Part shown: piece after piece, positions 3,096 to 20,179 of the stretch
Numbering within the stretch: position 1 is the stretch's first letter
Layout of the letters: each line of letters begins with the position of its first letter
Source of the DNA: a virus
Virus record (IMG/VR): IMGVR_UViG_3300032156_000097
Location: 1-20,179 of that record
DNA length: 20,179 bases
Direction: 5' to 3' (one strand)
Position numbers and translations under genes: made by a program
Notes under the pieces: generated by a model
The model's database searches: none
Seen by the model: only the letters and a program-made list of their open reading frames with translations
What the model was told of the DNA's origin: nothing

Positions 3096-3977
3096 TTAAT
3101 ATTTATCACTTTTACTTAAATTCTCTTTAGCCCATAGGGGCTGAAGATTGGTATAGCGAAAGCATTTGCGTTGTTCTGATTTCTTTCGCAAATCAAATTT
3201 AGCACAGGGCTTGATATGGTCTATGTGCCATTTGCCATAATTAGCCCAAGACATACCTGAAACAAATTTAGATTCTAAATGCTTTTTTAATTGTTCTAAA
3301 GAACAACCTACCAATTTTAATGCCGATTCTAATTTGGTATTATTTTTTAATACTTTGTTTAATCTTGTTCTTAAATAATGGGCTAACCTAAAATTAATGT
3401 CAATTTTGCGTCTATTTTTATCATACTGATTGCCATATTTTATTCTTTCTTTTCTATGTTTTAATCTATATTGTTTTGCTTCTTCTTTATGATTTTTCCT
3501 ATATTCTGTATGTTGAAGTAAAATTTTTTCTTTATGTTTTTGATAATGTTCTCGTTTCTTTTTTAAAAGTTCTTCTTTATGTTTTTCATAATATTTTCTA
3601 ATTTCCTTTTTATGAGTTTGATAATATATTTTATGATATTTTTTTATTCTCACCGAAATTTCTTTTTTATGTTCTTGACAATATTTTTTTTGATATTGTT
3701 TTTCTTGTTTTTTATGCGTTTGATAATATTTTTTTCTTTTCTCTTTTAATTTTTCTTTATTTTCTTGATAGCGCCTTTTGGTATATTTTTTTGTTTCTTC
3801 TTTATGAGTTAAACGATATTTTTTCATTTCCTCTATATGAGTATCCCTATATTTTTTATCTATCTGTTTTTTACATAATTTACAATAACTTTGCAAACCA
3901 TCTAAATGTAATTGATGTTTTCCGAATTCGCTTATATCTTTTTTTATTTTACATTTATTACAGATTTTAGTTTTCAT
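3096..3977 (-). CDS. HNH homing endonuclease with zinc ribbon and basic repeat linker
   Basis: This 293-residue protein is a probable free-standing homing endonuclease. Residues 6-35 hold two CxxC pairs (CNKC, CKLC) of a zinc ribbon. Residues about 40-215 are about a dozen imperfect repeats of the type Y-x-x-T-H-K-E-E, 11 or 15 residues apart and extremely Lys/Glu-rich, predicting a long charged helix. The C-terminal HNH domain (residues about 245-293) reads WHIDHIKPCAKFDL, then YTNLQPLW and ENLSKSDK, giving the His, His and Asn metal-binding pattern. A paralogue with the same repeat and nuclease lies at 8514-9266 but lacks the zinc ribbon. The gene sits between the tail tube gene and small tail genes. 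It has no SD: the ATG abuts the 3' arm of a hairpin. Confidence 0.85.
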   Translation of the reverse strand: MKTKICNKCKIKKDISEFGKHQLHLDGLQSYCKLCKKQIDKKYRDTHIEEMKKYRLTHKEETKKYTKRRYQENKEKLKEKRKKYYQTHKKQEKQYQKKYCQEHKKEISVRIKKYHKIYYQTHKKEIRKYYEKHKEELLKKKREHYQKHKEKILLQHTEYRKNHKEEAKQYRLKHRKERIKYGNQYDKNRRKIDINFRLAHYLRTRLNKVLKNNTKLESALKLVGCSLEQLKKHLESKFVSGMSWANYGKWHIDHIKPCAKFDLRKKSEQRKCFRYTNLQPLWAKENLSKSDKY

Positions 3978-5630: not shown

Positions 5631-6374
5631 CTATGTTAAAGCAACTCTTGCACAAATTAATTTTTTATAATATTTTTTCCAATAATCTCTATTAGAATTT
5701 GCCCTAAAATTACACCAAAGACATACCGTAATTAAATTATCTTTATTACAATTTTGTTTAATATAATCTATGTGATGAACTGTCAGTACTTTTCCCATCA
5801 CAATCAAATGCTCTTCTTCGGTTATGCCACAGTTTTGACAAGTATAATTATCACGTTTACGGATGGATTCTTTTAATTCAGGAGACCAATTAATTCCATA
5901 AGGTTCTCTACTGCTATAATTATTAAAATTATAATTATTCTCTCCTTTAAAAAATCCCTCTAATTGTTTTGCTCTAATTATCCGAAGTTCTGGATACTCA
6001 TCATAACTTATTTTTACTGATTCTGATAAATTACGTAATTTTATTTTGAATCTTTTAAAATATTTTCTTAAAACGGTTATAGAACATTTTAATAATTTAG
6101 CAATTTGACGTGATGATAATTTTTCTATATTATATTTTTGATTTAGCCAATACTTTGTTATATTTAATTTTGGAATATTTACTAAACAAACTCCTTCTTT
6201 CATTGTACGGATTTTTATATGATATTCTTTCAGTCGATTATATATCAATGTATCAGAACACCCTAATTTATTGGCTATCTGCACTGTAGATTTTCTATCT
6301 ATTATATATAATTTATAAAGATTTTTTTTAGAAAATTTTTTACTCGGATTAAAATTATGATTTCTTTTTTTCAT
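5631..6374 (-). CDS. HNH endonuclease with two helix-turn-helix segments
   Basis: This 247-residue putative homing endonuclease has two N-terminal DNA-binding helix-turn-helix units at about 28-55 (STVQIANKLGCSDTLIYNRL) and 86-113 (SSRQIAKLLKCSITVLRKYF), each resembling sigma-70 region 4 or resolvase-type HTHs. A NUMOD-like GENNYNF motif is near 144. The C-terminal HNH domain (about 168-235) has zinc-binding CQNC and CLWC pairs and the VHHID core at 199-203. The usual final histidine after the second Cys pair is asparagine (CNFRANSN), so activity is uncertain. The gene has no SD and starts 1 nt after the stop of the upstream tail gene. Its last residues (RVALT) copy that gene's C-terminus. 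Confidence 0.85.
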   Translation of the reverse strand: MKKRNHNFNPSKKFSKKNLYKLYIIDRKSTVQIANKLGCSDTLIYNRLKEYHIKIRTMKEGVCLVNIPKLNITKYWLNQKYNIEKLSSRQIAKLLKCSITVLRKYFKRFKIKLRNLSESVKISYDEYPELRIIRAKQLEGFFKGENNYNFNNYSSREPYGINWSPELKESIRKRDNYTCQNCGITEEEHLIVMGKVLTVHHIDYIKQNCNKDNLITVCLWCNFRANSNRDYWKKYYKKLICARVALT

Positions 6375-6847: not shown

Positions 6848-7390
6848 TTATTTTCCTGCGTTTTCGAGTGATTTATTAAATTTTGTAATTTCTTTTTCTA
6901 TGTGTTTTTTTAGCTCATCAAATCCAATATCAACATACCTAAGTGGTTCAATTACTTTATTTGGTTGCATAAAAAAGAATCCCGAACCTTTTCCTGTATG
7001 ATGCCATTTTTCTCCTGACCCACCTGCTTCTGGTGCCCTAAAAGCATCACCAAAATAACCAATGTTTGCCTGAGTTACTGCAAATCCATCATTAAATGCT
7101 TCCCAATAAGATGCCCCACTTTGTTGACCAACTGGAAAAGTAGAAATATTTCCTATACCTATATGGATACCAGCAGTTGAAGAAAGAACATCTACTCCAA
7201 TTGCTCCTGCTAATTTTTGTAATTTATAGCCAGAGCCTTCAAGGATTTTCTTCATAATTTCGGCAGTAGCCTCGGCACTTAACAAAATCTGTGCCTGGAG
7301 TTCAGGATATATAATTTTTTGAACCTCCGAAAACCATTGAACAGGATTTTTTCCTCTATGAGAAATTCTTACTTCAAATGTTTGTGGCAT
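6848..7390 (-). CDS. HK97 gp10-like neck / tail completion protein
   Basis: This 180-residue protein is probably a head-tail joining or tail-completion protein of the HK97 gp10 type. It has an N-terminal strand (FEVRISHRG), a helix with EATAEIMKKILEGSG, and a glycine/aromatic-rich middle (IHIGIGNI, SYWEAFNDG, KWHHTGKGSGFFF, with Trp, His and Phe), ending in a basic helix (DELKKHIEKEITKFNKSLENA). Gp10-like proteins similarly carry a helix and then a 'G..Y....E.G' region followed by a C-terminal helix. It sits two genes downstream of the connector. The assignment rests on order and general sequence character. Confidence 0.55.
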   Translation of the reverse strand: MPQTFEVRISHRGKNPVQWFSEVQKIIYPELQAQILLSAEATAEIMKKILEGSGYKLQKLAGAIGVDVLSSTAGIHIGIGNISTFPVGQQSGASYWEAFNDGFAVTQANIGYFGDAFRAPEAGGSGEKWHHTGKGSGFFFMQPNKVIEPLRYVDIGFDELKKHIEKEITKFNKSLENAGK

Positions 7391-7401
7391 TTATGAGTTC
7401 C

Positions 7402-7785
7402 TTATGTATTTATTACCTTTTTCTCTAAAATTACTACGAGATAATCTTGTCTTGAAAGTATCCCAAAGCCCTTTTGGTCATCTTTGTAACACTTAAAATA
7501 ATCTTCTCCAATTTTTATACGGTCTGCTGCTTTAATTGTATTTATATGTCTTTTTTCTATATAAATTTCTTTCGACCCGATGGGAATATTTCCATAATAA
7601 GCCCATTTTAGAGCCTCTGGCGACACATCTCTCACCAAGGCATCAATTGCTACGGGCTGCAAGTAACTTAAATTTTTTGTATGTTCGTATGGGTCATTTT
7701 CAGTTTCTTTAGCAACATAAACTAATACCTTAGTTAATTTCTCTTCATTTTTTAGTAATCCGAACAAATCTATTCTTTTATCCAT
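7402..7785 (-). CDS. Probable head-tail stopper / head completion protein
   Basis: This 127-residue protein follows the connector and precedes the gp10-like gene, as head-tail stopper (head completion) proteins do. Its C-terminal half (IEKRHINTIKAADRIKIGEDYFKCYKDDQKG, then DYLVVILEKK) reads as a small beta-barrel, the fold usual for stoppers. Residues 25-60 (AKETENDPYEHTKN, QPVAIDALVRDVSPEALKW) resemble the exposed loop region of such proteins. The ATG at 7785 overlaps the end of the small upstream gene by 8 nt. The functional role is inferred from context and fold impression. Confidence 0.55.
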   Translation of the reverse strand: MDKRIDLFGLLKNEEKLTKVLVYVAKETENDPYEHTKNLSYLQPVAIDALVRDVSPEALKWAYYGNIPIGSKEIYIEKRHINTIKAADRIKIGEDYFKCYKDDQKGFGILSRQDYLVVILEKKVINT

Positions 7786-8513: not shown

Positions 8514-9266
8514 CTATAATATAATTTTATCTTTTTTTGATAAATTCTCTCCTGCCCAGAGGGGCTGAAGATTAATGTAATTAAAGCATTTACGCTGCTC
8601 GATTGGTTTGGATAAATCAAAACTCGCACAGGGTCTTATATGGTCGATGTGCCACTTACCATAGTTAGACCAAGACATACCTAACTTGAATTGTTTCTGT
8701 AAATGTTTTCTTAACTGTTCAATACTACAACCTAATAATTTCATAGTTTTTACCGATTTGTAATTATACTTTAATGCGTTACAAATTCTTATTCTCAAAT
8801 TACATTTAATCCTAAAATTTAAATCTGTTCTTCTTCTATTTTTTTGAAATTTTCTAATCTCATCTCTATGATTTCTTCTATATTTTCTTACTCTTTCTCT
8901 GACATTTTCTTTATGAGTTTTACCATATTTTGCAGATTTAATTAATATCTTTTTTCTATTTCTAATATAATAATCTCTTTTTTGTTCAGCAATTTTATCT
9001 TTATGGATTTTGCGATATTCTTTTTCTTCTTCTTTATGTTTTTGATAGTATTCTCTTCTTTGTTCTTTTAATTTTTCTTTATTCTCTTGATAATGCTGTT
9101 TTCTATATTTTCTTAATTTGTCTTTATGTGATTTGCGGTATTGTTCCACAGAATTTTTTATTTCTATTTTATGAGTTTGGCGATATTTTTTCATGTATTT
9201 CTTTAATTCTTCTTTATGTATTTTTCTATATATTTTCATATATTCTTTTTTTGTTTCTGTTTTCAC
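8514..9266 (-). CDS. HNH homing endonuclease with basic repeat linker
   Basis: This protein of 250 residues starts with GTG at 9266, supported by GGAG upstream. It is built mainly of imperfect Y-x-x-x-H-K-E-E repeats (residues about 5-145), strongly Lys/Arg/Glu-rich, probably a long charged helix. The C-terminal HNH domain (about 200-250) reads WHIDHIRPCASFDL then YINLQPLW and ENLSKKDK. It is paralogous to the product at 3096-3977 but lacks its zinc-ribbon N-terminus. The GTG overlaps the upstream stop by 4 nt. Of the five endonuclease genes it is the only one with a good SD. A self-mobilising endonuclease is the most likely role; the target site is unknown. Confidence 0.85.
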   Translation of the reverse strand: MKTETKKEYMKIYRKIHKEELKKYMKKYRQTHKIEIKNSVEQYRKSHKDKLRKYRKQHYQENKEKLKEQRREYYQKHKEEEKEYRKIHKDKIAEQKRDYYIRNRKKILIKSAKYGKTHKENVRERVRKYRRNHRDEIRKFQKNRRRTDLNFRIKCNLRIRICNALKYNYKSVKTMKLLGCSIEQLRKHLQKQFKLGMSWSNYGKWHIDHIRPCASFDLSKPIEQRKCFNYINLQPLWAGENLSKKDKIIL

Positions 9267-9806: not shown

Positions 9807-10742
9807 TTACACGTTTAAATCATCCGACCATGCTATAGCTTTAAAATTAACCACAGCTTCAACTACACATTCGTATCCAACGCATCCATATCCTAAAATG
9901 TTCTTGCTATTATTAATTACCTGAAGTCCACCGATAGTTGTAATTATTCTTTGAAGTTCATCAGGTGCAATTCCTAATAATGCAGCAACTTCAGGACTAA
10001 TTTTGCGTCTTACAAATAAGCAAGGTTTTCCGCCAACTCTTAACTTAGAATCTCTTGCCACTAAAATAGCTTTAGTTGCAGCTAAAACTGGGTCATAAGA
10101 ACCAGAATCTACCTTTACAGTACCAACTACTTTTATAACTTTAATACCATTAGCAGCCAACATTTCTTTTATACCAACTCTATAATTGAAATTATCAGCA
10201 TTTTCTTTATCATAAGTATTGATTTTTTCCCAAACTGTAGAACCAGCTAAAAGAATAAAATTATCTCCATAATCAACTATTTTATGAACCATCTTCACAA
10301 TACCGTCATAAAGGTCTTCGCCAGAACCGCAAGTAATTCTCTGAGTAGCTATAGCTAAAATAACATCTAACAATTTCTTTACATCCTGTTTATCCATAGA
10401 ACGAGTAATTGCTGCTTTCTTTCTTGCCAAAGCTGACTGGTCTTTTGCATCCTGAAGTTCATGGATAGTAACATAAGCTAAATCTGACTGATAACCAACA
10501 AATGTCATAGTTGCAACACCACTGGGGGATTTCTTGTTTGATGTAATCTCGCCAGAATCTCCAGCAGTATAAACGGTATCAACGTTGTCATCATAAGCAG
10601 AAAAATAATAAACATCCTCACCAAATTCCGCAGTCTCTAAATCGCATATTTCAACTAATTCCACTGGAACTGGAAGAGTACTGTCTATAGGCTGCCCGAT
10701 AACTCTCGCAATCTCTAAACCGTTAAGTTCGATTTTTTCCAT
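9807..10742 (-). CDS. Major capsid protein, HK97-like
   Basis: This 311-residue protein is the best candidate for the major capsid subunit. It follows a scaffold-like gene and a protease gene, and shows HK97-type features: an E-loop-like region after VYTAGDSGEITSNKKSPSGVATMTF, a spine-helix-like stretch (ELQDAKDQSALARKKAAITRSMDKQDVKKLLDVILA, residues about 95-130), and an A-domain with LLAGSTVWEKI and NGIKVIKVVGTVKVDSG. It lacks signal and membrane segments. An intergenic hairpin and a leader of about 70 nt precede its ATG; another hairpin follows its stop. Its base composition is less AT-rich than that of the neighbouring endonucleases, consistent with high expression. The precise fold is not proven by sequence alone. 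Confidence 0.75.
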   Translation of the reverse strand: MEKIELNGLEIARVIGQPIDSTLPVPVELVEICDLETAEFGEDVYYFSAYDDNVDTVYTAGDSGEITSNKKSPSGVATMTFVGYQSDLAYVTIHELQDAKDQSALARKKAAITRSMDKQDVKKLLDVILAIATQRITCGSGEDLYDGIVKMVHKIVDYGDNFILLAGSTVWEKINTYDKENADNFNYRVGIKEMLAANGIKVIKVVGTVKVDSGSYDPVLAATKAILVARDSKLRVGGKPCLFVRRKISPEVAALLGIAPDELQRIITTIGGLQVINNSKNILGYGCVGYECVVEAVVNFKAIAWSDDLNV

Positions 10743-10816: not shown

Positions 10817-11854
10817 TTATTCGTGTCCGTAGGCTTTTAAGTTTATCTTTTTTTGTCTTTCTTTAAGTTTACTATCTTTTTCTATTTTCTCAGTATTTCC
10901 TACTTCAACTGTAGGTTCTTCTTTTGCTACTTCAACTTTAGGTTTAGTTAATTCCGCAATCTCTTGAGCTTTCGCATCAAGTTCTTTTTTTAGATTAGTG
11001 ATTTCAGTTTCTTTATCAATTATCTTTTTTTCTAAATCAACTTTAATCTCATTAGTTTTGGCTTCTAATTCAGTTTTATGAAGATTTGCTAATTCTTCTT
11101 TGGCTTTATTAACTGCCTCTTCTAATTGTGCAGAAGTATATTTACTGATTTTAGAATCACTAGCTGAATTTGCATCTCTTATTTCGATTTCTTCATGACC
11201 ATCTTTATAAGTTCTTATGATTTTTTCATAAGACTTACTCTGATAATCAACTCCGCCATCTTCGCCAATAGATTCTATATTCTCAGATGTATAATAAGAG
11301 ACGGTTTTTATTGGTTTTTCTTTCTCTTTTTGTTCTCCAACAGGTGCTTCCGCTACTTGAGCAGGTTCGGGCTTCACCTCTACAGGTGGCACTACTTGTG
11401 CTGGTTCGGGAGTTACCTGAGCAGTTGGTTCTTCTGCTTTTTCATATCTTTTTAACAATTCGGTCATATTTAATTCTTTGGCTTTTTTCAAAGCTCTCTT
11501 TTTTACAAGTTCTCTTTCTTCCTCTGTAAGATTTTTAGCAACGGGAAGACGTGCCAAGCAATTTCTAACGTGTGCAGGGTCGTAAATAGGAAATCTGCGA
11601 ACTTTAATTTTTTCGCCAGTCTTCTTGTTTACAACATATTGAATCAAAGCAAAATCAGAATCTTTCAATTCTTTACGTTCTTTATAAGTAAGTTTCTTTG
11701 CTTCTTCAATAATTTTGCCTTCCTCATCTAATAAATCTTCATCGGCAATATCTTCATCTTTTAGTTTATCAGATAAAAACTCAGCTTGGATAACGCTATC
11801 AATTTCTTTCAATTGTTCCTCATTCAAATCATCAAGAACTATTTCACGATTCAT
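10817..11854 (-). CDS. Scaffold-like protein with DUF6582-like domain and coiled coil
   Basis: This 345-residue protein lies between the prohead protease and the major capsid gene, as scaffolding proteins do. Residues about 53-130 (KKLTYKERKELKDSDFAL, then RRFPIYDPAHVRNCLARLPVA and LVKKRALKKAKELN) match a domain found in phage and prophage capsid-assembly proteins (DUF6582-like: dSDFAL, yPIhDpaHaRNcLaR). Residues about 143-172 are Pro/Glu/Val-rich with a repeated EPAQV. Residues about 235-300 are a charged coiled coil (ELANLHKTELEAKTNEIK, KEITNLKKELDAKAQEIAEL). An SD with AAGGAGG precedes the ATG at 11854. No canonical catalytic motif is seen. Confidence 0.65.
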   Translation of the reverse strand: MNREIVLDDLNEEQLKEIDSVIQAEFLSDKLKDEDIADEDLLDEEGKIIEEAKKLTYKERKELKDSDFALIQYVVNKKTGEKIKVRRFPIYDPAHVRNCLARLPVAKNLTEEERELVKKRALKKAKELNMTELLKRYEKAEEPTAQVTPEPAQVVPPVEVKPEPAQVAEAPVGEQKEKEKPIKTVSYYTSENIESIGEDGGVDYQSKSYEKIIRTYKDGHEEIEIRDANSASDSKISKYTSAQLEEAVNKAKEELANLHKTELEAKTNEIKVDLEKKIIDKETEITNLKKELDAKAQEIAELTKPKVEVAKEEPTVEVGNTEKIEKDSKLKERQKKINLKAYGHE

Positions 11855-12608
11855 TTACTATCCTCCTTATCTTTGTTTTTATTTTAGATACAGAAACGGA
11901 TTTATTATTTTTTATCTCTTTTTCTGTAAGTCTTAAAATATTGAGTCCATTGTTTTTAAACCACTTATCTTTTTTTATATCCATTCTTCTTCTTTCTGGT
12001 AAAGCATGAAAATAATCCCCATCACATTCTATAACTAATTTATATTTAGGTAAATAAAAATCAGCAACCCATAAAGAATTATAACTCCATTGACTTATAA
12101 ACTTTATATTTAATTTATGAAGTTCTCGATTAATTATTTTCTCTATAGAAGAAATTCTGTTTTTAGCTATAAATATTCTTGCACATTGTTTAGAACAAAA
12201 TTTTCTTTTTGAACTCTTGAAATCCTTTACTTTTTTCTCGCAGTTTTTACATTTAAAATTCATAACTCTATCTGTTAATCCTTTATTCCAAGGAATACGA
12301 CCCTTTTTAAGCATCAAATTATTTTTACCATGCAATAAATAAGTATGCTTTCCTAAACAACTTCTATTACAAAAATGATGTTTATAAATCCTTAATTTAG
12401 ATGGTATTCGCCAAATTGTTTTATCACAAAAATCACATTTAACTTTAATTTTCTTACTCAACTTTTGTCCTATTATTTTACCATTGTGTTTATTAGCACA
12501 ATTTTTAGAACAAAAATGATGGTTATGTTGTTCAAATAAACTTTTACAATTATAAACTTTTATTCCACAACGTTCACAATTAAACCAAATACCTGATTTT
12601 TTATTCAT
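11844..12608 (-). CDS. Zinc-finger PD-(D/E)XK endonuclease, Vsr/DUF559-like
   Basis: This 254-residue putative homing endonuclease has treble-clef-like zinc fingers at about 11-37, 58-84 and 120-142 (CERC...CSKNC, CDFC...CNRSC, CKNC...CSKQC). A NUMOD3-like stretch lies near 92-111 (GKNNLMLKKGRIPWNKG). The C-terminal nuclease (about 152-235) has VADFYLPKYKLVIECDGDYFHALPERR, with D183, E194, D196 and H201, resembling the Vsr-like 'EDxHD' phage homing endonucleases and DUF559. It overlaps the upstream protease gene by 8 nt and the downstream scaffold gene by 11 nt. It has no SD of its own. The catalytic residues were assigned by eye. Confidence 0.8.
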   Translation of the reverse strand: MNKKSGIWFNCERCGIKVYNCKSLFEQHNHHFCSKNCANKHNGKIIGQKLSKKIKVKCDFCDKTIWRIPSKLRIYKHHFCNRSCLGKHTYLLHGKNNLMLKKGRIPWNKGLTDRVMNFKCKNCEKKVKDFKSSKRKFCSKQCARIFIAKNRISSIEKIINRELHKLNIKFISQWSYNSLWVADFYLPKYKLVIECDGDYFHALPERRRMDIKKDKWFKNNGLNILRLTEKEIKNNKSVSVSKIKTKIRRIVNES

Positions 12609-13323
12609 GTTTAAAATAATTATTTATTTTAGAAATTAATTGTTCTTTTTCGCATGTACAAGGATTACATCCTTTACATTTAGGTTCGTCTACAGCTAAC
12701 TCCGCATAAACTAAATCTTCTGCAAATAATTTTTCTATATATTTTTCTACTCTGCCTATTAATTTAAAAATTTTGGCATTAGGACAAGCAGGCTTATGAG
12801 CTAATAAAACACCTGTTCCATGAAAAATTATCGGGTCTATTTCTCTCTGCCCATTCGCTAATTCTTTAATTACTGATTTTCCATCTATTTTATTATAAAT
12901 TTCAAATGATACAGCAGCTTCTTTTGATTGCACTTTTGCTTTTAGTTCTTCTATTTGTTCGGGAAATAAAGATTTAAAAAGAACATTTATTGTTTCTACT
13001 TTATCTTCATTTATTTCCGCTTTTATACTATAACCACATACAAATCCCGCACCATTATGTTCCCAATTACATTGTTTTCCGACTAAAGTTTTCAATCCCC
13101 TTTCAACTGCTTTGCGAGGAAGAATTACTCCATTTCTATTTACTTTATCAATTTCTGCATAAACAGTCTTCATTACCATTAAATCTGGAGAAGGCAATTC
13201 AATTCCTATTTTTTTAGCAGCTTCTATTAATTCTTTATTATCATCTGATATTTCAATAAAAGTAGTTTCAGACCTTTTTGCTATTTCTAATAATGCTTCA
13301 GCAATTATTCTTTTATCTTCCAT
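12601..13323 (-). CDS. Probable prohead (capsid maturation) protease
   Basis: This 240-residue protein is likely the maturation protease that trims the capsid or scaffold. It has NRNGVILPRKAVERGLKTLVGKQCNWEHN with a candidate catalytic His (H89), and KEAAVSFEIYN with a candidate Ser (S139), the H...S arrangement of herpesvirus-like phage proteases; a third acidic residue was not assigned. The position (portal, protease, scaffold, capsid) is classical. The extreme C-terminus carries CKGCNPCTC, a Cys-rich tail unusual for this family. The ATG overlaps the portal stop (TAATG) and is preceded by AAAGGAG. Confidence 0.65.
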   Translation of the reverse strand: MEDKRIIAEALLEIAKRSETTFIEISDDNKELIEAAKKIGIELPSPDLMVMKTVYAEIDKVNRNGVILPRKAVERGLKTLVGKQCNWEHNGAGFVCGYSIKAEINEDKVETINVLFKSLFPEQIEELKAKVQSKEAAVSFEIYNKIDGKSVIKELANGQREIDPIIFHGTGVLLAHKPACPNAKIFKLIGRVEKYIEKLFAEDLVYAELAVDEPKCKGCNPCTCEKEQLISKINNYFKHE

Positions 13324-15248
13324 TATTTATTCTCTCCTTTGGAGTGTCGTTTCATCCATTTCTTGAGTTGACTCCATGCTCCCGCAAATGCTCTTGCTTC
13401 ATCATGAGTTTCGTTATAAATAGAATTCCATGTTTCTATCCAGACATTTCTAGCTCCTTCAGGATATTTATCAAGATATTTGGGATAGTTAGTTTTAGTA
13501 TAGGGGGCTATAATTAAGTCTTCATCTAAAGAAGATTCTATAATTTCAATCGTAGCGTTGCTGTGTTCTTTAACCCATTCTTGTGCTTCTTTCAAAGACC
13601 ATTTGGTTTTCTCAAATAAATAACTCTGTATAGTTGTGGACTTTTTCCCTTTAAGTCTCCCAATCACAGCCTTAATTCCTTTTTCTTTTGATAATGTAAT
13701 TATTCTAAAACTATTTTGCTCAAAATCTTTTGGGTCTTTTTGTCTTAGTCGAATATAATTTTCAGTAATTTCTGGAGTATATCCTATGACTGCTTTTAGA
13801 TATTCTACTTCTGTTTCTTCTGTTAGTTCATCTTCCAATCCTACTTTTTGGGTTTCTTTTTCTTTTTGTTTTTCAGTTTCTTTTTTTGTAATGGGAACTA
13901 TTCTTTCTGTATCTATTCCTTTCTCCTCCTGATTTTGTATAACGTGTGGATAATAAATTTCTCTCAATCCATTTTCCCATTCTTTTTTCATTCTCTCTAA
14001 TTCTTGTTCTGGGTCAATTCCTAAGGATTCTTGATAAGTTTCAAAAGTAACAGCACCATAAACGAATCCACTTCTTATAGAATCTAAAATGTATTGAACA
14101 TTTATTTTAAGTGGGCTATTTACTATTTTTAATGCTTTATTGTCGCTAAATAGCTTTCTGTGGTCTATTTTATTTTCAGAAATAATTAATCTTACAACAT
14201 CCAATAACATAGACTTAAAATCAGCCACACCTGAATTTATCTCAGCTATAAAAGGTTTTGGATTGAGCCTCGTTTCCTGTCTTGATGGCGTAATTTCGAG
14301 CATGTCGGCAAAGCCGAGTCCAGCCATTATTGCTCTATAACCCTGCCTATAAAGCTCTTCCTTTAATATAGGTAAGAGGTCTGGAATTAAATGTTCATAC
14401 TTCTGGTCAAAAGGAATGGCATTTGCAGGTAATTTTCCTTTTTCATTTTTATAACGTTCTACTGCTGATTTAAAATTGTCTAATAATGTTTTTAATTCGG
14501 CATCAGAATAATCTACATTTTTTTGTAAAAAAGCATTTTCTGTTCCCTTTGTAATCTGAAATAAATAAGGTAATACTTTAGAGATGGCTTCATCACCTTT
14601 TGAAGAGAGAATTTCCATTGCCATCCAATTCTTTAATACTCCTTTTTTCACAAGATAAGGAGACGGATATTTGCTAAACCATCTTGCAAAAGGTTTTTGG
14701 ACAATTATTTGCTCTTTATCATTTTTGGGTATTGGTAAATCTTTTTTCTCATCTAAATAATACTTATCAGTTCCTAATTTATAATTTTTTTCATTTTTTC
14801 TATCAATATAAACAGATGACCCATTAACAAAATAAAGTAATGTAGGAACTTTGATAGAGGTATTCCCAATAGAAATAGTTTCCCATATTCCAAGTCGCAT
14901 TAAACATAAAGATGAACCAGCCCATCTTTCTTTGTAATATTCCTTGGCGAGTTCTTGAAGACCAGTAGGAACTCCATTTACATTTAAATTGATTCTTGAA
15001 AGCCATAAATTCAGGAGTTGTTCTAATGTATCATCAGAGCACTCTACTTTTAAAATTGCCTCTGAAGAAGAATTAATAGAATAATCTACAATGGTCGAAA
15101 TTATTCCTGAAATGTCATTATCCAACATCTCAGAAATTTTTCCGCAACGTTCATGAAAACTTTCTGGAACTTTAATATTTCCTGAAGAATAAGCCCAAGT
15201 AAGAAACGATTCCCAAAGACCTGAAGCAAGGCCTGAATTATTTGCCAT
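13323..15248 (-). CDS. Portal protein with C-terminal ChaB-like extension
   Basis: This 641-residue protein is the portal vertex subunit. Its N-terminal half carries portal-like helices (DNDISGIISTIVDYSINSSSEA, LQELAKEYYKERWAGSSLCL) and the middle has GYRAIMAGLGFADMLEITPSRQETRLNPKPF and the ISE/DSIRSGFVYGAVTFETYQESLGI region typical of phage portals. Residues about 455-580 (KKETEKQKEKETQ, then EKGIKAVIGRLKGKKSTTIQSYLFEKTKWSLKEAQEWVKEHS) are a charged linker and an 'SYLF.K..W...EAq.Wv..h' motif. The last 60 residues (LDKYPEGARNVWIETWNSIYNETHDEARAFAGAWSQLKKW) resemble the ChaB domain. Its SD (AGAGGA, 15255-15260) lies inside the end of the upstream endonuclease gene, which it overlaps by 11 nt. 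Confidence 0.8.
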   Translation of the reverse strand: MANNSGLASGLWESFLTWAYSSGNIKVPESFHERCGKISEMLDNDISGIISTIVDYSINSSSEAILKVECSDDTLEQLLNLWLSRINLNVNGVPTGLQELAKEYYKERWAGSSLCLMRLGIWETISIGNTSIKVPTLLYFVNGSSVYIDRKNEKNYKLGTDKYYLDEKKDLPIPKNDKEQIIVQKPFARWFSKYPSPYLVKKGVLKNWMAMEILSSKGDEAISKVLPYLFQITKGTENAFLQKNVDYSDAELKTLLDNFKSAVERYKNEKGKLPANAIPFDQKYEHLIPDLLPILKEELYRQGYRAIMAGLGFADMLEITPSRQETRLNPKPFIAEINSGVADFKSMLLDVVRLIISENKIDHRKLFSDNKALKIVNSPLKINVQYILDSIRSGFVYGAVTFETYQESLGIDPEQELERMKKEWENGLREIYYPHVIQNQEEKGIDTERIVPITKKETEKQKEKETQKVGLEDELTEETEVEYLKAVIGYTPEITENYIRLRQKDPKDFEQNSFRIITLSKEKGIKAVIGRLKGKKSTTIQSYLFEKTKWSLKEAQEWVKEHSNATIEIIESSLDEDLIIAPYTKTNYPKYLDKYPEGARNVWIETWNSIYNETHDEARAFAGAWSQLKKWMKRHSKGENK

Positions 15249-15882
15249 TTTTTATCCTCTCTTTATTAAAATAAGTTTTATTCAAAATTAATATTATTAT
15301 ATTTGGATATAATTTTTTAAATAAATCAAATTTTTCTTTTGCATCATCTCTCCACCAGCCTTTGATTTCCACATAAGTATCGCTTTCAGGTAAATAAAAG
15401 TCTGGGGTATAAGTAGTAGTTTCTAAATTAAAAGTTTTAGATTCGTAGAGCCATTTGATGCCTTTAGAATCTAATTCTTTGGCATAAATAACTTCCCAAT
15501 TACTGCGAAACCAAATATTTTTATAGTAAGAACCTTTACCATGAAAAGATAATTTTCCAAATCGAGGACTGTTTTTTCCTCTATTGAATTTATAATGACA
15601 TTTTTTACATCTTTTGCTTCTATAATTAATTAATGGTATTCCGCAATCGATACAAAAAGGTTTTTTATTAGTCCTACCATCTTTATAACTTGAATTATTT
15701 TTACCTACATTAAATGCATACCAACATTGTTCACATCTTATTGCACGACAATTTATTAATTCTTTTCCACAAGAACAATAATATTTTTTTCTACCTGTTT
15801 TGTGTGAGCAAGATTTACATAAACCAGATTTGCTACTTCTCGTAATTTCTTTTTTACAACATTTACAAATTCTTATTTTCAT
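15238..15882 (-). CDS. Zinc-finger PD-(D/E)XK endonuclease
   Basis: This 214-residue putative homing endonuclease has several CxxC pairs (residues 6-9, 22-25, 36-38, 50-53, 77-80 and 92-95) and NUMOD3-like motifs (GKNNSSYKDGRT, RGKNSPRFGK). The C-terminal nuclease is clear: SNWEVIYAKELDSKGIKWLYE (E130), YTPDFYLPESDTYVEIKG (D161, E172, K174), the E...PD...ExK pattern of PD-(D/E)XK enzymes. It is inserted exactly between the large terminase (1 nt gap) and the portal (11 nt overlap). It has no SD. Its activity depends on E130-D161-E172-K174, all present. Confidence 0.85.
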   Translation of the reverse strand: MKIRICKCCKKEITRSSKSGLCKSCSHKTGRKKYYCSCGKELINCRAIRCEQCWYAFNVGKNNSSYKDGRTNKKPFCIDCGIPLINYRSKRCKKCHYKFNRGKNSPRFGKLSFHGKGSYYKNIWFRSNWEVIYAKELDSKGIKWLYESKTFNLETTTYTPDFYLPESDTYVEIKGWWRDDAKEKFDLFKKLYPNIIILILNKTYFNKERIKNGK

Positions 15883-15883
15883 T

Positions 15884-17521
15884 TTAAGAAAAAACTCCTA
15901 AACCTGGCTTCCTAACCTCTGTTATTGCATTTATTAATGGTAATTGTTCTGTCAACCATTCTAAAATAGCGAAAACTTCAAAACTCTGCACATAATGGTC
16001 TTCAGTTGTTGTATCGTAAATTATTTTGCTTCCAGAAACTATTTCTATATAAGACGAAAATTGTAAATCAAATTTATAGTCATCATCTGGTATATCAAAT
16101 CTTTTATCATAGAACATTTGTTTTAATCTACTAACAGCAAAATAAAGTGTTGGGTCTTTCTTTTCTATTACTTCACCTTTTTTATCTCTAACTATTTTTC
16201 CTTTATCATCTTTTTCAATTCCAGTTACAATGTCTTCATTAAAAGCACACCAATAAACTCTTTTTATTACTTTTGTAATTTCACCTTTTTCATTTGTAAT
16301 CTTTTCATTTAATTTTTCAGAAAGTATTTCATATACTGGTTTTCCCATAATAGTACAATCCAATGAAATATAATGACCGTTTACTTTTCTAAAAATATAT
16401 TCCATTAATTCTGGTAACTCTTTTGTCAAAGAAAGGCGATAAGTAGTTATATTATAAATTAATTGATACTTATTATTTACTTTTCCAATAATGCAAATTT
16501 CTGTCGCAGCAGCATCTCCTATATCAGACACTACAAAAGTTCTTGTTGCATTATATACTGGTTCTAAAACTAAAATATTCGTATAATCTTTAAAATTTGA
16601 TTTTGTAATTTCAAAATGTTTTATTATTCTTTTTTTATTATAATTTTGTTTAACTCTATCCATATCAAAACAATTTTGCGTTCCTTCTATTAAATCGGCA
16701 GCCACATTTATGCGATAACCAGTTGACTCGCTTCCACCATAAGCTCTTATTCTATTGCTTTTAGTTCTTTCATCAAATAATTTACTTACATATTGAGGTA
16801 ATCTTATGACATGTTTTTTTGTTTCTGTATCTCTAATTAATCTTCCTAATGGAGATGATTTAGTTATCAATGGAATACCACATAAAATCTCCATGACTCC
16901 AAAATCACTTACTGCATCTATTTTTTTTGTGTATGCTTCTTCTGTTTCTGCTTGTATTTCATCTTGAAAATTTATATATGTATGATGACCCCACCAAGAT
17001 TCTCCTGGATTTTTTCCTTTAATAGTTTCATTAACTCCGAATAATGAATTTCCATTAGTTGTCTGAATCTCATATTCTGGACTCCCTCTTATTCTTTTCT
17101 TATAAAATTGAAAAAAATTATGAGAAACAACAAATTCTCTAACATTATCTAATACTTTAGAAACATGTTTTTCGTCATAAGAAGACATTGTCATTTCTTT
17201 GTCTCTATAGTAAATTAATTTTAATAAAATATTTGCAATTAAAGCTATAAAAGTCTTTCCTATTTTTCTTGCAGAAATTACAATTCTTGTTCCTAAATTT
17301 ATTCTTCTACGAAAATTATCTACTTCTGATAATGTATTATCATCTTCTATAATACTATCGTATCCCAAAAAAGGTATCTGATAAAGCCTTACTCTAATAC
17401 ATTCTTCTCCATCATTCCAATTTCTCGGAGTTCCTTTAGAAAACAAAGACTCTGTTGCACATTTAGGATTATAAAATCTTTCCATAAACTGTTCTTCTTC
17501 TCTGTCTAATTTTTTATACAT
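15884..17521 (-). CDS. Terminase large subunit
   Basis: This 545-residue packaging ATPase-nuclease drives DNA into the prohead. Walker A is VISARKIGKT (residues about 81-90), a variant with Ser-Ala-Arg-Lys before IGKT. Walker B is YINFQDE (182-188). The coupling segment is CGIPLITKSSPLG (about 214-226). The RNase H-like nuclease has FVVSDIGDAAATEI (D333), YISLDCTIMG (D388) and a C-terminal DTTTEDHYVQSFEVFAILEWL, fitting the three-acidic-residue pattern. Length is normal. It overlaps the upstream gene by 8 nt and is followed at once by an endonuclease. Motifs are intact, so it should be active. Confidence 0.85.
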   Translation of the reverse strand: MYKKLDREEEQFMERFYNPKCATESLFSKGTPRNWNDGEECIRVRLYQIPFLGYDSIIEDDNTLSEVDNFRRRINLGTRIVISARKIGKTFIALIANILLKLIYYRDKEMTMSSYDEKHVSKVLDNVREFVVSHNFFQFYKKRIRGSPEYEIQTTNGNSLFGVNETIKGKNPGESWWGHHTYINFQDEIQAETEEAYTKKIDAVSDFGVMEILCGIPLITKSSPLGRLIRDTETKKHVIRLPQYVSKLFDERTKSNRIRAYGGSESTGYRINVAADLIEGTQNCFDMDRVKQNYNKKRIIKHFEITKSNFKDYTNILVLEPVYNATRTFVVSDIGDAAATEICIIGKVNNKYQLIYNITTYRLSLTKELPELMEYIFRKVNGHYISLDCTIMGKPVYEILSEKLNEKITNEKGEITKVIKRVYWCAFNEDIVTGIEKDDKGKIVRDKKGEVIEKKDPTLYFAVSRLKQMFYDKRFDIPDDDYKFDLQFSSYIEIVSGSKIIYDTTTEDHYVQSFEVFAILEWLTEQLPLINAITEVRKPGLGVFS

Positions 17522-18310: not shown

Positions 18311-18640
18311 TTATTCTGATAATTTCATTACTTCTGAAGCAATTTCTTTTGCTTTTGTTCTTAATAATTGATATTCCTCATATTCTAAAGTTCCTGGATT
18401 TACTATTTCATTATTTATTAAAGCAAATTCGTCATCTCTTGAATAATTATTAGAAATAATTGCAATAATTATTTTATCTCTTGTTAATTCTCCTTCAATT
18501 TCTACATAATCAAAATCATAAGATAATCGAGATTTTCCAGTTATGTCTTCTTTGGTGGTTTCTAAAATATTAAAACGTACCTGAGTTTTACCGTTTGATT
18601 TTACTATAATTTTTGGTTGTTTATCCGAATTTCCTTTCAT
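18311..18640 (-). CDS. Small protein coupled to the reverse transcriptase, unknown function
   Basis: This 109-residue protein starts at the ATG at 18640, which overlaps the reverse transcriptase stop (ATGA), with GGAGG upstream, so the two are made together. Sequence features: a beta-rich N-terminus (IIVKSNGKTQVRFNILETT), a middle LSYDFDYVEIEGELTRDKIIIAIISNNYSRDDEFALINN and a C-terminal helix (YEEYQLLRTKAKEIASEVMKL). It is not a four-helix Avd-like protein by eye. Proteins of this pattern (an 'elTrdkII.AII...YS.ddE.Al.NN' core) occur near tail and DGR genes in gut-type phages, but I cannot name a function. It could be a DGR accessory factor or an unrelated structural protein. Confidence 0.6.
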   Translation of the reverse strand: MKGNSDKQPKIIVKSNGKTQVRFNILETTKEDITGKSRLSYDFDYVEIEGELTRDKIIIAIISNNYSRDDEFALINNEIVNPGTLEYEEYQLLRTKAKEIASEVMKLSE

Positions 18641-19689
18641 ACTAATACCTCCTCTAAGGGATTTTTATGGTTTAATAATGCACAATTATTTGCAACTATG
18701 GTTTGTATATCTGTATCTATATATTTAGTAAATAACTGTCGACAATCACCATATTTCATCCAACCATAATAACTCATAATCGAATTAATTATATTCTCAT
18801 TTAATAAGTTATATTTGTTTTTAATTAATTTAATCTTTCTTTTAAATCTAAGTACAATTGATTTCCTAAGTAAAGTAAAATCGTGAAAAAATCGATAACC
18901 TAAAAAATCAATTCCTCGAATATCAACGGGAAATATTTGATAATTTTCTTTTAAAGAAAGAACAATATTTTTACAATAATTATTGATTTCTTGAAAAATA
19001 AACCATAATTCATTCTTCGAATTTGATAATATCACAATATCATCACAATATCTAAAATAATATTTTATGTTAAATTCTTCTTTAACAAAATGGTCAAGAC
19101 CTGATAAATAAATATTTCCAAAATATTGTGATAAATAATTTCCTATCGGTACACCTTTTGTTGATTCTATTATTTCATCTAATAACCAAAGTGTATCTTG
19201 ACATTTTATTTTCTTTCTGATTATTTTTTTCAGTACATCATGGTTAATAGAAGGATAGAATTTTTTAATATCTAATTTTAAACAATATTTTGTTCCTTCT
19301 ACGTCTTTAAGAGCATTTTTAATTCTTCTTACTCCATCATGTAATCCTCTACCTTTAATTGAAGAATAAGTATCTCGTATTAAAGACCTTTTCCATATCT
19401 TTTCCGTTACCTGCATTATACAGTGATGAATAATTCTATCGGGAAAATATGGTAATTTAAATATTTCTCGTTCTTTTCCATAAAAATCTCTTTTAAAAAT
19501 ATAATATTCAGAGTTTTTAAACGTCTTATTTTTTAGCATATTATGAATTTTGTTTACATGCTCATCTAAGTTAGAGTCTACTACTTTAACCTCGGCGTAA
19601 TATTTCTTTCCTTTACTAGCGTTATGATGAGCAAGTTTAATATTATTTATATCGTATATTTTTTGATACAAATTACCGAATCTTTTCAT
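18637..19689 (-). CDS. Reverse transcriptase of a diversity-generating retroelement
   Basis: This 350-residue enzyme copies the adjacent template RNA into mutagenised cDNA. Motifs: YFPDRIIHHCIMQ (81-93), YCLKLDIKKFYPSI (135-148, catalytic D140), GVPIGNYLSQYFGNIYL (179-195, the I-G-x-x-x-S-Q motif characteristic of DGR enzymes, where other bacterial RTs have QG...SP), YFRYCDDIVILS (211-222, with Y-C-D-D at 214-217) and GIDFLGYRFFHD (259-270). The ending is basic. Retron, group II intron and Abi domains are not seen. It starts at 19689, right after the TR and a short spacer. The ATG has no clear SD. It overlaps the next gene by ATGA. The adjacent TR/VR pair confirms the assignment. Confidence 0.95.
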   Translation of the reverse strand: MKRFGNLYQKIYDINNIKLAHHNASKGKKYYAEVKVVDSNLDEHVNKIHNMLKNKTFKNSEYYIFKRDFYGKEREIFKLPYFPDRIIHHCIMQVTEKIWKRSLIRDTYSSIKGRGLHDGVRRIKNALKDVEGTKYCLKLDIKKFYPSINHDVLKKIIRKKIKCQDTLWLLDEIIESTKGVPIGNYLSQYFGNIYLSGLDHFVKEEFNIKYYFRYCDDIVILSNSKNELWFIFQEINNYCKNIVLSLKENYQIFPVDIRGIDFLGYRFFHDFTLLRKSIVLRFKRKIKLIKNKYNLLNENIINSIMSYYGWMKYGDCRQLFTKYIDTDIQTIVANNCALLNHKNPLEEVLV

Positions 19690-19707
19690 ATAATTTTGTG
19701 TTTATTC

Positions 19708-19748
19708 GCCTCTGAGCTTTCGGTTACCCTACCAGCACATTGTGAGGC
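19708..19748 (-). ncRNA. Candidate structured RNA between TR and RT
   Basis: The spacer between TR and RT (19690-19802) contains a G+C-rich block in an AT-rich setting. On the transcribed strand it can fold as a closing stem GCCTC/GAGGC (19744-19748 with 19708-19712) enclosing GCT/AGC and GGT/ACC pairs around the loop AGGGTA. A small CACC/GGTG hairpin lies next to it at 19763-19774. In studied DGRs, RNA flanking the TR is needed for cDNA priming, so this is a candidate for that element. Folding was done by eye. Confidence 0.5.
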
Positions 19749-19802
19749 AGTCTTTTATTTTTCACCAAGTGGTGTGGTTACATATCTTAATAAAACATTT
19801 AT

Positions 19803-19918
19803 AAACATAACTGCTCGCTGATATTAGAATTAGAATTAGCTGAATCATTATTCAAATTCAAATAGAACTCGCTATCATTAGCCTCATAATTAGCAATACC
19901 TCCTGAATTAGCAACTCG
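19803..19918 (-). repeat. DGR template repeat (TR)
   Basis: 116 bp that aligns without gaps to 19958-20073 at an offset of 155. On the transcribed strand it carries 35 adenines, of which 28 are different in the VR, while only 2 of the 81 other bases differ. Read in the target frame it contains nine AAT codons, the typical AAY pattern of DGR templates, and would end in a stop. It begins 30 nt after the target gene's stop. Confidence 0.95.
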
Positions 19919-19947
19919 TATCAGTGCACAGATATGCAACCTTAAAA

Positions 19948-20179
19948 TTATTTTCTAAAACACAGCCGCCCGCCGAAATGAGAAAAAGAAAAAGCCGAAG
20001 CAGTACTCAAATGCAAACAGAACCCGCCATCATCAGCCCCACAACAAGCAGCACCCCCCGAAAAAGCAACTCGCCAACCAACAGACCGATAATAATAGTC
20101 TGTAATCTTTGTTGCCCCATCAGCACCTATAGAAGCTGGTAAAAATCCTCTCGCAATATTTAATAATGTTGCTTGCCAA
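19948..20179 (-). CDS. DGR target protein, C-terminal lectin-like domain (5' part missing)
   Basis: The frame is open from the right edge to TAA at 19948-19950, giving the last 76 residues. It has DYYYRSVGWRVAFSGGAACC, GADDGGFCLHLSTASAFSFS and HFGGRLCFRK, resembling the C-terminal end of C-type-lectin-fold (formylglycine-generating-enzyme-like) DGR target proteins, where variable residues are displayed on a ligand-binding face. The VR covers nearly all of this segment (from about residue 36 to residue 73). The protein probably decorates the virion or is a host-interaction factor; its N-terminal part would decide this and is not in the window. Confidence 0.85.
   Translation of the reverse strand, partial: WQATLLNIARGFLPASIGADGATKITDYYYRSVGWRVAFSGGAACCGADDGGFCLHLSTASAFSFSHFGGRLCFRK
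19958..20073 (-). repeat. DGR variable repeat (VR)
   Basis: 116 bp at the 3' end of the target gene, matching the TR except at template adenines (28 of 35 changed) and two other positions. All nine AAT codons of the TR are altered, giving F, C, D, H, S, T, F, F, H. The repeat ends 8 bp before the stop codon. A GC-rich stretch (GGCGGGCGGCTG) lies near its 3' end, partly created by substitution of adenines. Confidence 0.95.

Follow-up and report, generated by a model that had tools for sequence, protein, structure and literature searches.

Near the end of a virus fragment recorded in IMG/VR (20,179 bases; the entire fragment was analysed and is called the window here) lies a cassette that raises the question of whether it is a genuine diversity-generating retroelement (DGR) and, if so, of which type. 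A reading made from the letters alone (the sequence-only reading) had proposed a DGR at positions 18637-20179. Because of the adenine-specific divergence of a template repeat (TR) and a variable repeat (VR), the identity of the reverse transcriptase (RT), the type of the target gene and the recurrence of the arrangement in relatives, we consider, with a probability of about 0.94, that the cassette, carried by a genome fragment of a tailed virus, is a genuine DGR of the Avd-less 'target-VR-TR-RT' type. The proposed identity thus stood, supported by the RT match and tree, the TR/VR pairs of the relatives and the predicted fold of a target homolog; what had been overlooked was the Avd-less type, a structured RNA in the spacer between TR and RT, and the incompleteness of the element, which continues past the contig end.

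The TR (19803-19918, 35 adenines) and the VR (19958-20073), both on the minus strand, aligned without gaps over 116 bp with 86/116 positions (74%) identical. On that strand 28 of the 35 template adenines differed in the VR, versus two of the 81 non-adenines (Fisher p about 4e-18), so that the repeat coordinates, the identity and both counts of the sequence-only reading were reproduced exactly. The changes from TR to VR were A to G (16), A to T (8) and A to C (4), plus two T to C, and the mismatches fell 12, 14 and 4 times on codon positions 1, 2 and 3, respectively. Read in the target frame, the TR consists of AAT-rich codons, which is the usual DGR design, and its 35 adenines are mostly in AAT-type codons. 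An adenine-specific repeat scan of the whole window found this pair alone, and no such pair appeared in 24 dinucleotide-preserving shuffles, bearing out the adenine-specific signature that had been claimed. Of the two changes at non-adenines, that at TR position 109 lies 8 bases from the 3' end of the VR, inside the IMH/IMH* zone, in which mismatches are to be expected; that at TR position 23 is not explained by this zone. On the minus strand, the VR is in frame and occupies the extreme 3' end of an ORF (19948-20178), and the gap of about 40 bp between VR and TR contains no ORF.

The RT gene (18637-19689, minus strand) is intact and encodes a full-length protein of 350 aa with all motifs, including the IGNYLSQ (19126-19146) and YCDD (19039-19050) noticed by the sequence-only reading. 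It matched the profiles RVT_1 (E 8.5e-19) and phrog_1423 (E 9e-118), and the best match among solved structures was the RT of the BPP-1 DGR (bRT, PDB 8ub7, E 6e-39, residues 2-321), followed by a group II intron RT (E 2e-15) and, still weaker, by other RTs. A tree combining 19 DGR-type RTs with four others has a branch (support 93/89) that sets the DGR-type RTs, the window RT among them, apart; a position outside the DGR clade, which had been put forward as evidence against a DGR, was therefore not what the tree gave. The window RT paired with that of IMG/VR locus L012 (98/94), and crAss phage RTs were among its relatives, the deeper branching being without resolution. In one related locus (L007, 228-761) the catalytic core of the RT gene is deleted in frame, and the same contig carries an integrase-like gene.

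The target gene (19948-20178, minus strand) is cut by the contig end, and only its last 76 codons are present, the 5' part lying beyond the contig. This C-terminus matched the tail protein profile phrog_5302 (profile positions 477-543 of 548, E 2.5e-11). As the window target is truncated, the lectin-fold test was run on a complete homolog from locus L002, a protein of 459 aa with the VR at its end and an Mtd N-terminal domain (Mtd_N). The only significant PDB matches of its model (mean pLDDT 78) were chains of the Thermus aquaticus DGR variable protein (TaqVP 5vf4, E 2e-8), with BPP-1 Mtd (1yu3) next at a weak E of 0.19. Complete target homologs are thus predicted, from modelling, to fold like DGR variable proteins, and the window target would be the C-terminus of a C-type-lectin-type tail protein with a presumed role in receptor binding.

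Scans covered IMG/VR loci beyond the window, 80 of them chosen through a related RT and 17 through a related target. In most of these about 100 loci the VR, TR and RT follow one another in that order, and the two repeats differ at adenines. When 79 distinct TR/VR pairs were pooled, 1676/2497 adenines (67%) and 62/6253 other bases (1.0%) differed. Ten pairs of near-identical relatives (for example L049/L050/L051, L030/L031 and L041/L042) had identical TRs and, mostly, flanks 97-100% identical, and their VRs differed at 13-22 TR adenines versus 0-5 other sites. A more distant pair (L005/L006), from the branch holding BPP-1, showed the same combination of identical TRs, near-identical flanks and VRs that differ chiefly at TR adenines. 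Since near-identical relatives keep the TR and differ in the VR at TR adenines, the DGR lineage of the window is active in nature, as seen through these relatives, and the window virus itself would presumably share this activity. At another locus (L087, 3177-7283) one TR serves two targets with VRs.

Two other explanations of the cassette were weighed against these data. An RT from a different system (a group II intron, a retron or an antiviral RT) could stand by chance beside a tandem duplication that resembles a TR/VR pair, and the nearest NCBIfam models to the window RT were indeed group II intron and Drt/retron RTs, all of them far under cut-off. Since, among solved structures, the DGR RT matched better than any other RT by 23 orders of magnitude, the divergence of the repeats has the adenine specificity given above and the same arrangement is present in most relatives, we regard this coincidence as next to impossible. 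The cassette might otherwise be a fossil, that is, a DGR no longer active in the window virus, given that 80% of the template adenines have already changed together with two non-adenines, and that a search of IMG/VR with a degenerate TR pattern yielded no sister of the window contig carrying a different VR. Loss of activity is nevertheless improbable in view of the full-length RT with all its motifs, a VR that has kept its frame at the 3' end of an open ORF, an intact spacer RNA, divergence at just 2/81 non-adenines, and relatives whose VRs turn over while the TR remains unchanged.

The spacer between TR and RT measures 113 bp, and its segment 19694-19779 (minus strand), lying between the 3' end of the TR and the RT start, matched the Rfam family RF03020 ('RT-17 RNA') over the full model with 38.4 bits (E 2.7e-5), 2 bits under the curated cut-off of 40.4; the match to RT-18 (RF03021) was weaker (23.2 bits). 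The nearest relative, L012, scored 42.7 with RT-17, over the cut-off. Matches to RF03020 were found in 43/49 DGR relatives, 27 of them over the cut-off, and all 43 lay between the TR end and the RT start. Thirty bacterial and archaeal genomes chosen for related RTs gave 22 RT-17 matches, 19 of which, after conversion of coordinates, were directly before a related RT; two of the remaining three adjoin another TR, and one, under the cut-off, has neither. Across 28 spacers, P1 (a hairpin) and P3 (a helix) were paired in 92.5% of cells, with a covariation of 0.591 versus 0.252 in shuffled and at most 0.15 in slid alignments, as counted from the alignment, a regex-based helix count having been abandoned as unreliable. 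The outer helix P2 was supported among close relatives only (22/64 below p 0.05). In one stretch (L199, 3628-3805) an RT-17 RNA accompanies a TR and two VRs, and a tblastn search using the window RT as query detected no RT there.

The same position between TR and RT is occupied in other phages by Phage_DGR in BPP-1, by RT-14 in BalMu-1 and by RT-3 in hankyphage and BT-TP2; the RT-14 match (L109, 2834-2977) and the RT-3 matches (L110, 2825-2974, and L111, 2809-2958) lie between the TR and the RT of a DGR. RT-18 was located directly before the RT of LBR48 (L107, 702-777), in a stretch where no TR/VR pair was found. These positions suggest that several Rfam RT-n families are DGR spacers. The title of the Rfam entry RF03020 gives no function, and the RNA was reportedly described by Weinberg et al. 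2017. The Rfam accessions gave no hit in the part of the literature searched; the link between RT-17 and DGRs may already be known.

The bAvd profile PF22296 had no match in the window or in any of the 49 relatives, and recognised the positive controls BPP-1 (E 2e-37) and BalMu-1; PF05635 was dropped as a detector after it missed the BPP-1 Avd. The relatives searched include several large records, of 69-283 kb, and complete crAss phage genomes. The window is part of a virus genome, and, its target being truncated by the contig end, an Avd gene or a second target may lie beyond that end in this virus. Avd is reportedly missing from about a quarter of DGRs (PMC7290462). In BPP-1, the folded spacer recruits the bRT-Avd complex and cDNA synthesis is primed from it, Avd being needed along with this structured spacer (PMC12875486). 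As 43/49 relatives carry the RNA match between TR and RT and 0/49 a bAvd match, RT-17 looks like the priming spacer of Avd-less DGRs, by analogy with BPP-1. On its position and the same analogy, the window spacer RNA is probably the RT-binding and priming part of the template RNA. A broader proposal, to which we give even chances, is that RT-17 (and RT-18) would serve a large Avd-less DGR lineage as its dedicated template-RNA module, replacing the BPP-1-type spacer and Avd, so that RT and RNA alone would bind and prime adenine-mutagenic cDNA synthesis, RT-3 and RT-14 being modules of other DGR lineages.

According to the mechanism that we propose, the minus strand would be transcribed through the target, TR, spacer and RT. 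The RT would bind the template RNA at the RT-17-like hairpins between TR and RT, and cDNA would be primed there, as at the BPP-1 spacer and here without Avd. The TR transcript would then be copied into cDNA with misincorporation opposite template adenines, and by replacing the VR this cDNA would rewrite those codons of the tail receptor-binding protein that carry adenines in its C-terminal lectin-like domain.

A small gene (18311-18640, minus strand, 109 aa) overlaps the RT stop by 4 bp and is conserved after the RT in most relatives. It might be taken for the missing accessory factor of this Avd-less DGR, since it directly follows the RT, often overlapping it, in most relatives as well as in the crAss phages cr50_1 and cr55_1; a profile search placed it beside the RT in about fifty loci. 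Three loci separate it from the RT. In the Methanosarcina virus MetMV the homologous target, which aligned in two blocks with 42% and 57% identity, is followed directly by the small gene, and a related RT was not found in that genome. Locus L094 has the target and then the small gene, with no RT ORF between them, and in L087 the order is target, small gene, second target, TR, RT, small gene, one copy thus following the first target and another the RT. The protein model (pLDDT 93) is a beta-hairpin with three helices, unlike the all-helical Avd bundle; it had no significant match in a PDB fold search and, among viral models, resembled uncharacterized phage proteins, those of cr50_1 and cr55_1 among them. 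We thus consider an accessory-factor role unlikely. Because MetMV, L094 and L087 separate the small gene from the RT, its product is probably a partner of the target protein, similar to an assembly factor, rather than an Avd or other DGR factor; perhaps it has a role in tail assembly. We read the TR-RT cassette as sitting between the target and its partner gene. In L094, the target and small gene are followed immediately downstream by a long serine-rich, low-complexity ORF (6914-7780).

The sole phage match of the small gene was MetMV, and an archaeal host was not assigned, one phage match being too little. The proteins at the portal (13323-15248), terminase (15884-17521) and capsid (9807-10742) positions, all on the minus strand, had no tblastn match among 50,697 phage records, and the window virus is therefore a member of a poorly sampled virus group. 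Five endonuclease-like ORFs (3096-3977, 5631-6374, 8514-9266, 11844-12608 and 15238-15882, minus strand) lie between the morphogenesis genes; they are HNH or HNH-like, Vsr-like or phage endonuclease I-like, and those at 3096-3977 and 8514-9266 are apparent paralogs with lysine-rich repeats. Five such genes in 20 kb is an unusually dense set of homing-type genes.

More than 30,000 DGRs have been catalogued so far (PMC8144416), and the window DGR, as a single locus, is one more among them, an ordinary but well-supported further example of the already known Avd-less type; its value is in the comparison. Tying an Avd-less group to one conserved RNA shape indicates a likely function for a catalogued RNA whose entry title has none, and this consistent tie is the part that deserves specialist attention. 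If RT and RNA suffice, targeted protein diversification could be studied, or put to use, with a simpler system of two parts.

With the BPP-1 DGR (mtd/avd/TR/brt) the window element shares the adenine-specific TR to VR transfer, a related RT, a lectin-type receptor-binding target and a structured RNA between TR and RT. Three features of BPP-1 were not found in the window: Avd between VR and TR, the different spacer RNA (Phage_DGR, RF03022) and a strong GC stem-loop behind the VR. The window sequence after the VR folds at -4.8 kcal/mol versus -31 in BPP-1. The DGR of crAssphage LMMB belongs to another virus group, has an RT of 431 aa versus 350 aa, and the small gene that follows the RT in the window was not detected there. 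In PMC7290462, which cites Wu et al. 2018 for the lineages, this DGR is placed in lineage 3, with the order target-VR-TR-RT and without avd. This order, the lack of avd, a tail-protein target and a related RT are common to both elements, and an RT-17-like RNA also precedes the RT of LMMB (30.5 bits, under the cut-off). By gene order and Avd absence, the architecture of the window fits the published lineage 3 DGRs.
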